NCBI RefSeq assembly: GCF_000374645.1
Contig: NZ_KB894805.1
Span: 1 to 64,000 of the forward strand
Length of the DNA: 64,000 nucleotides
Reading direction: 5' to 3'
Source of the DNA: Arhodomonas aquaeolei DSM 8974
GTDB taxonomy: Bacteria > Pseudomonadota > Gammaproteobacteria > Nitrococcales > Nitrococcaceae
The position numbers were made by a program, and so were the translations under genes. Below the pieces are notes generated by a model. It did no database searches. It was not told where the DNA came from and worked only from the letters and a program-made list of their open reading frames with translations. This document shows, piece by piece, positions 53,521 through 57,281 of this stretch (positions are counted from its first letter, which is position 1; the number at the start of each line of letters is the position of its first letter).

Positions 53521-53546
53521 GTCTCCGGGGTGTGTGCCCCGGAGAC
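53521..53546 (+). terminator. Terminator of dps
   Basis: Perfect 10-bp stem gtctccgggg (53521-53530) / ccccggagac (53537-53546) with loop tgtgtg, ten bases after the dps stop and followed by cgcctttcc. It is a strong GC-rich hairpin, though the T-tract is short. Confidence 0.7.
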
Positions 53547-53557
53547 CGCCTTTCCGG

Positions 53558-54004
53558 ATGCCGGGTTCCCCGGTGGCAGGGCTGAGCGATCTCTCCGCCC
53601 TGCTGCGGGGGCTCTCACCGGCGCTTGCCCCCGGCACGTACGTGTTCGTGACCGTGGGCCCGGCGGCCTACGGTGCGTACGCCGGGCTCAATCCCCTGGC
53701 CAGCTTCCGCGAGGCCGAGGGCCTGTCGCTGGTGTGCCGCCGCGAGGCCGCGGACGGCCATGGACTCGCCTACGACGGCCTCTTCCGGCTCATCACCCTG
53801 CGCGTTCACTCCAGCCTGGGGGCGGTGGGGCTTACCGCCGCCGTGGCCCGGCGGCTGACCCGCGAGGGCATTCCCGCCAATGTCATCGCCGCTTTCCATC
53901 ACGATCATATCCTGGTGCCGGCGCACCGCGGCAGCGATGCCGTCGCGGCGCTGCGTGCGCTCGCCGCGGAGAGGACGGGCCCCTCAGCCGGCGACCTCGA
54001 GTAA
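53558..54004 (+). CDS. ACT-domain-containing protein
   Basis: A 148-residue protein resembling the two-ACT-domain family of putative amino-acid-binding regulators ([24 protein letters not shown], then [75 protein letters not shown]). The function is unknown; the ACT fold suggests ligand binding. ATG 53558 and GTG 53573 are both possible; the family-like sequence begins only at LSDLSAL, so the shorter start is plausible. It lies directly after the dps terminator and its 3' end overlaps the convergent chemoreceptor gene by 21 bases. Confidence 0.8.
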
Positions 54005-55408
54005 CCGGTCGAGGCTGACATCCGCCCCCAGCACCCCGCGGATATCGCCGCGTGCGTCAACGAGGGGCACACCCACGGTGAGGCAGAACTGATTGTTCGC
54101 CGCGGAGCGGTAGATATCGGTGACGCAGGCCCGGCCGGTGCTCATCGCGCGGCGGAACCAGTCACGACCGGACCAGTCGCGGCCGGAGCCGTCGCCCTCG
54201 TAGCTGGTGGTGAACGAGGCCTGGGCGACGTTGGCGGTGACCTGATCCCCGGCGGGTGAGGTGATGTAGAACAGCTCCACCCACGGCATCTCCGAGAGGG
54301 CCTCGCGCAGGCGCCGCTCGCGTTCGTCGCGCCCGCCGCCGGCGAGCGCCGGGTCGGCGGCGAGCCCGGTCACCGCGGTGCGGGCGTGGCCGTGGGCGGC
54401 GAGCCGGAACGCGCCCAGGGAGGTGAGGACTTCATCGGAATACTCGTGGATGCGCTGGCTGGCGTGGTTTACCTTGCGCGACTGCTCGAGGATCGTCGCC
54501 GAGACGCTGGCCACCTCGTGGACCTGTTCGGCAACGCCCTGGGTGGTGGTGTTCATCTGGTGCATGGCCGTGGATATCCGCTGGCTGCGTGAATCGAGGT
54601 CCGCCATCGCCTGGCGGGCCGAGTCGAGCTCGTCCAGGGTCGTGGTGACGTCCGCCTGGGATTCGGTCAGCCCCGCCCGTACGGATTCCGCCGCGCTCCC
54701 GGTTTCCTCCATGCCGGTGGTCAGGCCCTCGATCACGCCGGAGACGCGTCCGGTGGCCTCGCCGGTCTGCTGGGCGAGCTGACGTACCTCCTCGGCGACT
54801 ACCGCGAACCCCTGGCCGTACTGGCCCGCCCGGGCAGCCTCGATGGCGGCGTTGAGGGCGAGGATGTTGGTCTGTCCGGCGATCCGGCTGATCAGTCCCA
54901 CCACCTCGGATACCTCCGAGGTCCGGGCCTGAAGCGCGTCGACCTGGGACTCCAGGGCCTGCAGCCGGGTGTCGAGATCGCTCATGTGCCGTGCGATCGC
55001 CTCGCCGCGCCGGTGGCTGGCGTCGACCAGGCCGGTGACCTGGCCGGCGTAGCGCGCGAGCTCCTCGGTGCTCGGGGTGATCTCCTGCTCGAGGGTGGTG
55101 GTCATCTCCTCGCTCGCCGCCGCGATGTGGTTGGCCGCGTCCGAGAGTGCCGTGCTCTGACTCTCGCCCGTCCGGGCGAGATCGGCGAGGGTCGGCGCGG
55201 TCTCCGAGAGCCTCAGCGCGCTGCCCATGGTGTCGGTGATCTGGGCGGCGGTGCGGTCCAGCAGGGTGTTCAGTGCCGCGGCGACGTCCGCCTGGCGGCC
55301 GGTCTCCGGCAGCGACAGGGAGAGGTCGAGGCCTTCCGTGGTGGCGTCCTCGATCCGGGCGGCGACGGTCTGACGCGGCTGGCTGGCGAGCGCGGTGATC
55401 CGGGGCAT
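53984..55408 (-). CDS. Soluble methyl-accepting chemotaxis protein with C-terminal Cache-like sensor
   Basis: A 474-residue chemoreceptor without any membrane helix, so it should act in the cytoplasm. Residues ~80-330 are a long coiled-coil signalling domain with the hairpin tip [40 protein letters not shown] that contacts CheA/CheW. Residues ~340-470 form a Cache/PDC-type ligand pocket ([81 protein letters not shown]). That domain is usually periplasmic and N-terminal; here it follows the signalling domain. No che genes are in the window. GGAGAAAC precedes the ATG. Confidence 0.9.
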
Positions 55409-55436
55409 CGTGTTTCTCCTTTCGGGTGGGTGGGGG

Positions 55437-57281
55437 CTACATGGCGCCGGCGTAGCTCGGCTCGGGCACCAGTGCGTCCACAGGGACGGGGCGGGCGAGC
55501 CCGAAGCCCTGGAGCAGGTCGCAGCCGAGGCTGCGGAGGATGTCGGCGTGGGCCACGGTCTCCACGCCCTCGACCACGGTGTCCAGCCCGAGGGCCCGTG
55601 ACATGGCGAGAATGCCGCGGAGGATGGCGTCGGAGTTCGGGTTATCGAAGATGTCGCCGACGAAGTCGCCGTCGATCTTGACCATGTCCACGGACAGGCG
55701 CTTGAGGTAGGTGAGCGAGGCGTAACCCGTGCCGAAATCGTCCAGTGCCAGGCGCACGTTGAGGCGGCGGCAGGCCGCGGCGGTCTCCGCGGCGGCGCTC
55801 ATGTTGTCGATCAGCGAGGTCTCGGTGAGCTCCAGCACCAGGGTCTCCGGCGGCACCTCGGGGTAGAGGGCGAGGGTGCGGGCGAGGTGGTCCGAGAAGT
55901 CGCCGGCGATGAAATTCCGCGCGGAGACGTTGACGTGCAGTGTCGGGTGGGGGATGCCGCGACGGCGCCAGTCGCGGATCTGGGACAGCGCGGCGTTGAG
56001 TACCCAGCGGTCGATGTCGCGCACGAGCCGGCGGCTGCCGGCCTCCACCGCCGGCATGAAGGCTGCGGCGGGCAGCAATCCGCGGGTGGGATGCTGCCAG
56101 CGCACCAGGCACTCCGCGGCGGGCGGGACCTCCCCGGGGGCGGCGAAGATCGCCTGGTAGTGCACCCGGAGCTCGCCGTCTTCGAGGGCCCGGGCGAGGT
56201 CCTCCGCCAGCGACTCCCGCTCCCGGCTGGCCCGCTCCATGGCCGCGTCGAAACGGTGGAGTTCCGCCCCGCCGCGGGATTTGGCGCGGTACATGGCCAT
56301 GTCCGCACGTCCGAGCAGGGCCTCCGGGCTCGCACCGTGCTCCGGGCACAGGGCGCTGCCCATGCTCGCGGTGCAGCGGAAGGTCCGGGGCATGGTGGCG
56401 GGCTCGGACAGCGTCCGGGCAATGCGGGCGAGCAGGGAATCCAGCGCCACGCTCCCGTGGGCGCCGTCGGCGAGGATCACGAACTCGTCGCCGCCCATGC
56501 GTGCGATGTCGTCGTTGCGCCGGCATACCGCATGCAACCGTTCCGCGGTGTGGCAGAGCACGGCGTCACCGCTGGCGTGACCGAGACGGTCGTTGACGGT
56601 CTTGAATCCGTCCATGTCGATCACGACGACGGCGAAGGGTGTGCCGTCCCGGTGGTAGCCGGCCAGGCGCTGGTTGAGCCGCTCCATCATGCCGGCCCGG
56701 TTGAGCAGCCCGGTGAGCTCGTCGGTGCGCACCATCGCCTCCAGGCGGTGCTCGAGCATCCGCCGCTGGCAGGCGACGGCGATCTGGCCGGCGACCTTCT
56801 CGGCGAGGAGGACGGCCTCCGTTTCCGGTGGCCCGTCCACCGGCCGGAACCACGACAGGGCCAGCGCCCCGATGGCGCCCTCACTGCCGATGAGGGGAAT
56901 GATCAGGTTGGCGCGCAGGCCGGCGTTGACGAACGCCGCCATGGCGTGGCCGTCGTCGGCGTAGTCCGGCGTGAACAGGGTGTGGCCGGCGCGCAGGGCG
57001 CGCCCGACCAGACCCTCGTCCTGGGCGAAGCGCAGTCCGGCGAAACGGGCCAGCCGCCGCAGCGCGCCGTTGAAGAACTGGTACTCGAGGCGGTCGTCGT
57101 CCGTGCACAGGATGAGCGCGGCGCCGTCCGCCTCGACGAACCCCCGCGCCGCCTCTGCGGCGCGGGTGAAGAAACGTTCGAAGTCCGGCTCCAGGGTCAG
57201 CGCATCGGCGACCTGCAGCAGCCGTTCTGTGGCGGCGCTGCCCACGCCGGTGTGCCCCGGAGCCTGCCCCTTGGTATTCAC
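55437..57281 (-). CDS. GAF-GGDEF-EAL cyclic-di-GMP protein
   Basis: A 614-residue cytoplasmic bifunctional protein. An N-terminal GAF sensor is at about 20-165 ([31 protein letters not shown] through [12 protein letters not shown]). The GGDEF domain (~185-345) has the intact motif [11 protein letters not shown] and an RxxD inhibitory site (RRND) five residues before it. The EAL domain (~360-605) contains [51 protein letters not shown] and [11 protein letters not shown]. Both active sites look complete, so it may make or degrade c-di-GMP depending on the GAF signal. It lies 28 bases upstream of the chemoreceptor gene in the same direction, so they probably share a transcript. Confidence 0.93.

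Follow-up and report, generated by a model that had tools for sequence, protein, structure and literature searches.

The window, a 64,000-nucleotide stretch of DNA, encodes on its minus strand a soluble chemoreceptor of 474 residues in which a single Cache/PDC domain follows the signalling hairpin. Our overall reading, which we consider probable, is of a cytoplasmic chemoreceptor whose single intracellular Cache domain is attached at the exact end of a hairpin of standard length, offers a pocket to a small molecule and signals from the base of the hairpin to its tip. Swimming would then probably be steered by an intracellular cue. Although each part of the receptor resembles known proteins, their arrangement is rare. 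The locus contains the following features.

53984..55408, minus strand: gene for the soluble chemoreceptor, 474 aa, with HAMP-like segment, MCP hairpin and C-terminal Cache/PDC domain (ORF, Pfam and fold)
55416..55422, minus strand: ribosome-binding site AAAGGAG, 7 nt 5′ of the ATG (read directly)
55220..55378, minus strand: degenerate HAMP-like segment, residues 11–63, without a membrane span (hhalign against receptors of the same genome)
54416..55219, minus strand: MCP coiled-coil hairpin, residues 64–331 (PF00015, E 1.4e-33; lengths)
54824..54874, minus strand: hairpin tip motif, 17 residues, which we take to be the CheA/CheW contact region (motif read in the sequence)
55094..55123, minus strand: match to the methylation-site consensus, residues 96–105 (consensus scan)
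54401..54415, minus strand: GAFRL junction, residues 332–336, canonical receptor C-terminus and predicted helix break (tip distance; model)
53987..54400, minus strand: single Cache/PDC domain, residues 337–474 (Pfam, fold and structure matches)
54158..54166, minus strand: R415-D416-W417, of which R and W align with PctA R126 and W128 (A3 alignment; PctA alignment)
54110..54112, minus strand: Y433, aligned with PctA Y144 (alignment)
54083..54085, minus strand: C442, invariant Cys on the strand following (15 of 15 MCP-PDC proteins)
54020..54022, minus strand: D463, aligned with PctA D173 (alignment)
55437..57281, minus strand: GAF-GGDEF-EAL gene, 614 aa (ORF, Pfam)
53534..54004, plus strand: convergent ACT-domain gene (PF10000, E 1.7e-21)

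The hairpin with its conserved tip places the protein among the MCPs. Pfam matched MCPsignal at residues 146–303 (E 1.4e-33, above cut-off), dCache_1 at residues 348–471 (E 6.4e-12, 46 bits against a cut-off of 45) and MCP-like_PDC_1 at residues 408–469 (E 5e-9, above cut-off); among the best 25 of 35 NCBIfam matches listed, none was above cut-off. No membrane span is predicted, the highest 19-residue Kyte-Doolittle mean being 1.13; of 11 further distinct receptors in the same genome, 10 have a segment above 1.8, L012 being the exception. These data agree with the initial annotation, which had described a soluble protein with its sensor pocket C-terminal to the CheA-contacting hairpin. The domain order is not a misassembly, since it recurs in 15 distinct proteins, the window protein included. 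The ACT-domain gene and the receptor gene overlap tail to tail by 21 bp (53984–54004), and the former is not thought to be part of the receptor system.

In 11 of the 15 fusion proteins, among them that of the window, the F of the junction motif FR[LF] lies exactly 155 residues past the start of the tip motif; four relatives with shorter hairpins have tip-to-F distances of 139 (L024), 145 (L027), 125 (L032) and 124 (L033). By subtraction, a terminal FR falls at the same distance of 155 in seven of the 11 other distinct receptors of the genome itself (L001, L002, L003, L005, L007, L011 and L013), L010 has an F there without the R, and L004, L009 and L012 deviate. The Cache domain has therefore been added where a full-length hairpin canonically ends, and the model places a helix break at GAFRL, between the hairpin and the Cache helix. 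Because the hairpin equals those of the cell's membrane receptors in length, adaptation is probably shared with them, and perhaps arrays as well. Residues 96–105 match the methylation consensus, which is matched a second time in the adaptation helices, and both are predicted methylation sites. The methylation pair of the C-terminal helix, at +100, reads EQ in several relatives (five matched) and HQ in the window protein. In L032 and L033 the tip of the hairpin is degenerate (ATRMIAINTSIAAAHAG), so that these two may make no contact with CheA; near them lies a gene which, from the gene calls alone, looks like one for a subunit of a type II topoisomerase.

Measured back from the tip, residues 11–63 occupy the position of HAMP in membrane receptors. 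When compared by hhalign with ten HAMP-position segments from the same genome, the HAMP-like segment scored 25.0 (probability 70%); none of 100 column-shuffled controls exceeded 13.6, and the helix after HAMP reached 7.9. The family profile used here had 11 rows: the pattern missed L024 and L027, and L032 and L033 were excluded because they were too short. Extending the N-terminal comparison raised the probability to 94% but took in the helix beyond HAMP, and the shorter comparison was relied on. Pfam detected no HAMP domain in six N-terminal fragments. We infer that the segment is a remnant of a membrane-receptor ancestor.

Modelling of residues 316–474 by AlphaFold with five relatives (pLDDT 85.7, pTM 0.82) confirms the Cache fold that had been suggested for the C-terminal region; the outcome named beforehand as refuting it, a prediction of some other fold, did not arise. 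The best match was the sensor domain of KinD, both by Foldseek (E 4.4e-9) and by VIA-align (Z 16.1, rmsd 3.6, 130 residues), with DctB, CitA, PctA, PctB, PctC, CtaA and Tlp3 below it among solved structures; Foldseek also matched YkuI (E 3.2e-7). A whole-protein AlphaFold model from the single sequence was poor (pLDDT 55.9) and was left out of the analysis. The dCache_1 profile is matched only over positions 34–157 of 240, where the protein ends; the domain is one PDC module, not a double Cache. Neither does it have the dCache_1 location between two membrane helices, outside the cytoplasm, for the receptor has no predicted span and carries its Cache C-terminal to the signalling domain. The receptor does share the arrangement of YkuI_C proteins, an intracellular Cache C-terminal to an output domain. 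The window fragment gave no Pfam match to YkuI_C (PF10388); the relatives L032 and L024 scored 26.1 and 25.2 (E about 1e-5) against a cut-off of 26, and L076 is YkuI_C by Pfam (E 1.6e-12). CZB was not among the three Pfam families that the C-terminal 150 residues match up to E 10, nor among the best 25 of 49 Pfam matches listed. The initial annotation had held that a Cache pocket normally sits outside the membrane. This stands as a rule but is too strong, as PMC4822843 names two small Cache families that are principally intracellular, YkuI_C being one of them; its census gives no MCP members there.

An internal cue had also been claimed, together with reversed signal flow through the hairpin. 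Intracellular sensing is indeed probable, given a soluble protein with a C-terminal Cache. The reversal finds no support: the hairpin is antiparallel, so that its two termini lie together at the end away from CheA, and TlpD provides a precedent. With both hairpin ends at the base, a C-terminal sensor therefore sits at the place of HAMP, and signalling should keep its usual direction, from base to tip. We propose a mechanism in which a small intracellular molecule would bind in a pocket around R415, W417, Y433 and D463 and so alter the geometry of a putative pair of Cache domains at the hairpin base. The change would enter via the C-terminal helix, across the GAFRL hinge, and travel from base to tip, biasing CheA. 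The N-terminal HAMP-like segment may help to dimerise or tune the base.

Alignment A3 (ten rows, window protein included) has 21 invariant columns, among them R415, W417, Y433, C442, T444 and D463, which, counted along the alignments, correspond to PctA R126, W128, Y144, I153, T155 and D173. We take the amino-acid pocket set of PctA to be Y121, R126, W128, Y129, Y144 and D173. R415, W417, F418, Y433 and D463 fit the dCache_1AA pocket set, and the full set is not present: the Y121 position is R410, which varies in relatives. The D146 position of the PctA pocket is not kept either, being S435. According to PMC10104139, R126 of PctA bonds the carboxyl group of the ligand, and R126, W128, Y144, D146 and D173 are given as the most frequent dCache_1 pocket residues in PMC7584622. 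Our guess is that the ligand is amino-acid-like or a small carboxylate. It is unlikely, in our judgement, that the Cache is instead a ligand-free structural domain for dimerisation or for sandwich arrays, a clamp in place of the membrane. Such arrays are the alternative to sharing those of the membrane receptors, and in those formed by soluble receptors the bases meet in the middle (PMC3964821); the extra N-terminal PAS domain of TlpD, too, is without an obvious pocket (PMC12871147). However, all ten diverged rows keep R415, W417, Y433 and D463 without change, and a clamp would not obviously need them.

The conserved cysteine raises a second alternative, namely that the Cache is mainly a redox or electrophile sensor acting through C442, like the Cys-Zn switch of CZB receptors. 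Cysteine occupies the C442 column in all 15 fusion receptors, in each of the 7 PDCs linked to EAL and in 18 of the 26 others, a total of 40 of 48 that is biased upward by a profile built from Cys-bearing rows; this count leaves out the membrane receptors L007 and L107 and places L075 with the EAL proteins. In the Cache domains of membrane proteins the column is V, I or Y and Cys was found in none of 11, a small control set drawn from the same genome and relatives, several of them interrelated, with rows gapped at the column dropped. Two residues after C442 comes T444; its PctA counterpart, T155, is a pocket position in purine sensors, and C442 may thus face the pocket. All this is consistent with a redox role, but no metal-binding cluster was seen, the remaining eight of the 48 relatives have S or T, the profile itself favours Cys-bearing matches, the control domains are few and partly related, and YkuI has Ile at this column. 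We regard such a sensor, itself a guess at the role of C442, as improbable. A ligand-binding Cache that signals towards the tip is the reading we retain.

The survey of the domain order that the initial annotation had envisaged returned the 15 distinct MCP-then-Cache proteins mentioned above, distributed patchily over three phyla. Besides the window protein and three from the same order, they comprise L028 (Thioalkalivibrio sp. ALJ16, a record that also supplied the G274 hit), L031 (G292), L062–L066 from one genus, L032 and L033 with their short hairpins, L024 from a Desulfarculus MAG and L027 from a Verrucomicrobium MAG; the relatives from two of the phyla are known solely as MAG contigs, for which misbinning is possible. 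The arrangement is found in 4 of 54 genomes of the window's order and in 1 of 23 of its family, the latter being the genome itself. It is present in at least 5 of 369 genomes of the class sample and at least 6 of 398 of the phylum sample, own genome counted in both, and these counts may be low, as at most 9 and 8 candidates, respectively, were scored per genome.

Maximum-likelihood trees were built for the PDC (47 rows, three of 50 having been dropped as too gappy) and for the hairpin (37 rows). The fusion proteins cluster in both, with 2 label changes each against shuffled means of 12.8 (PDC) and 11.9 (hairpin), and none of 500 label shuffles went as low as 2. Strict monophyly on one branch was recovered in 16% of the bootstrap trees of the hairpin and in 0% of those of the PDC; among the fusions stand the HMGL-linked PDC L059 in the PDC tree and the CZB receptor L016 of the same genome in the hairpin tree. 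Long branches were flagged, that of the window protein's hairpin included, and its joining with L062–L066 is possibly false. The simplest reading is that the fusion is old and was followed by patchy spread or loss.

Among PDB sequences the family profile (A3, ten rows) matched PctA best, with E 2.1e-7 over the pocket part, and it matched YkuI with E 8.1e-6 over a longer stretch, positions 43–154. The same profile matches PDCs behind EAL domains (L022, L061 and L074–L077), behind EAL-CBS-GGDEF (L067) and behind an HMGL-like enzyme (L059), as well as PDCs ahead of membrane helices or other sequence. The HMGL-like enzyme with its C-terminal PDC of the same kind (L059:1474-3414) comes from the genome of the Desulfarculus MAG and is possibly a ligand-controlled enzyme. 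Seven proteins (L034, L036, L037, L039, L042, L044 and L070) have an N-terminal PDC with the Cys, then four predicted membrane helices and none before the PDC. Among plasmids, a single record, for an Acidithiobacillus caldus protein with a PDC, was matched by each of two queries. The window's own genome also encodes a second receptor with a sensor after the hairpin, an MCP with a C-terminal CZB domain (L016:1084-2202; PF13682, E 7e-13), and an MCP with a weak, below-cut-off match to 4HB_MCP_1 after the signalling domain (L015:913-2433; E 5.7e-5).

The GAF-GGDEF-EAL gene ends 28 bp upstream of the receptor gene on the same strand, a spacing that makes co-transcription likely. Two relatives from one genus have EAL-PDC genes adjoining their MCP-PDC genes (L022:96-1508 and L077:6949-8145). 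In genome G044 the receptor and the EAL-PDC ORF behind it share a strand and overlap slightly (the true start of the EAL-PDC ORF may be further in), and in G028 a 56% identical homologue lies upstream of the receptor in divergent orientation. Only 8 and 11 EAL matches were found genome-wide in this pair; chance adjacency is therefore not often to be expected, though both genomes belong to one genus. Across the nine genomes of that genus EAL-PDC occurs in four, namely in 3 of 3 with the receptor and 1 of 6 without (one-sided Fisher p 0.048, a weak value from related genomes).

A c-di-GMP neighbour conserved as a general rule was rejected. In tblastn searches with the EAL-PDC and GAF-GGDEF-EAL proteins, three of the loci, those of the window, G028 and G044, have an EAL gene adjoining the receptor; in G292 a GGDEF match lies about 1.2 kb from it. 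The remaining loci, L062–L066, L032 and L033 included, gave no homologue of either protein, and the loci of the relatives have no homologue of the window's GAF-GGDEF-EAL gene beside the receptor. The window and 15 loci were covered, L028 being a duplicate of L080 and some loci being short or cut off by a contig edge, and the searches detect only homologues of the two queries; the receptors of L024, L027 and L085–L087 were unmarked by the gene caller, and their context comes from tblastn alone. We tentatively suggest, as a possibility well short of even, a class of intracellular single-Cache domains, often with a Cys on the pocket strand, fused behind diverse outputs (an HMGL-like enzyme besides MCP hairpins, EAL proteins and EAL-GGDEF proteins). 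Some bacteria would have such a domain on both a chemoreceptor and an adjacent c-di-GMP phosphodiesterase, and one internal metabolite would set both swimming and c-di-GMP. The two relatives in which EAL-PDC adjoins the receptor offer a direct test of whether a single ligand controls taxis together with c-di-GMP. That the signal instead runs from tip to base, with the array state controlling the Cache or a c-di-GMP partner, fits the adjoining c-di-GMP genes here and in two relatives but is most improbable, as the hairpin has both its termini at the base, the Cache is the last domain with no output behind it, and TlpD sets a precedent (PMC12871147).

Soluble chemoreceptors with C-terminal sensors (CZB) and an intracellular Cache behind an output domain (YkuI) are already known; searches of an open-access library listed no paper naming a chemoreceptor with a C-terminal or cytoplasmic Cache, nor one with the two combined at the end of a full-length hairpin, though such papers may exist and domain databases may list the architecture. 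KinD of Bacillus subtilis, a histidine kinase with an extracellular sensor, provides the best fold match but at 18% identity; a PDB entry is, by its title, a pyruvate complex of this sensor. Tlp1 of Azospirillum brasilense is reportedly a chemoreceptor with an extra cytoplasmic domain, in its case PilZ and not Cache (PMC6406031). It has a link to c-di-GMP. PctA-type dCache_1 amino-acid receptors are periplasmic, with an N-terminal double Cache; the R126, W128, Y144 and D173 positions of PctA are kept here, whereas Y121 and D146 are not. YkuI of Bacillus subtilis (EAL and YkuI_C) likewise has an intracellular single Cache C-terminal to its output domain and shares [DN]WS.R..F and, at the family level, Y..D..G.Q.T.N (the window protein has S for D). 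Unlike the window protein, its output is an EAL domain and it has Ile at the C442 column, and the window domain has no YkuI_C Pfam match. TlpD of Helicobacter pylori and the other CZB chemoreceptors are likewise soluble MCPs with a ligand-binding domain C-terminal to the hairpin; the full-length structure of TlpD has been solved (PMC12871147). TlpD differs in that its sensor is a Zn-binding CZB domain, its hairpin is about half the length of that of Tsr, canonical methylation sites are lacking and an N-terminal PAS domain stands in place of the HAMP-like segment. An intracellular Cache on the far end of the rod would add the window protein to TlpD as a second receptor whose CheA tip is driven by a sensor at the C-terminus. 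As its hairpin has the length of those in the cell's membrane receptors, it would offer a clean system for comparing signal entry through the C-terminal helix with entry through the N-terminal one.
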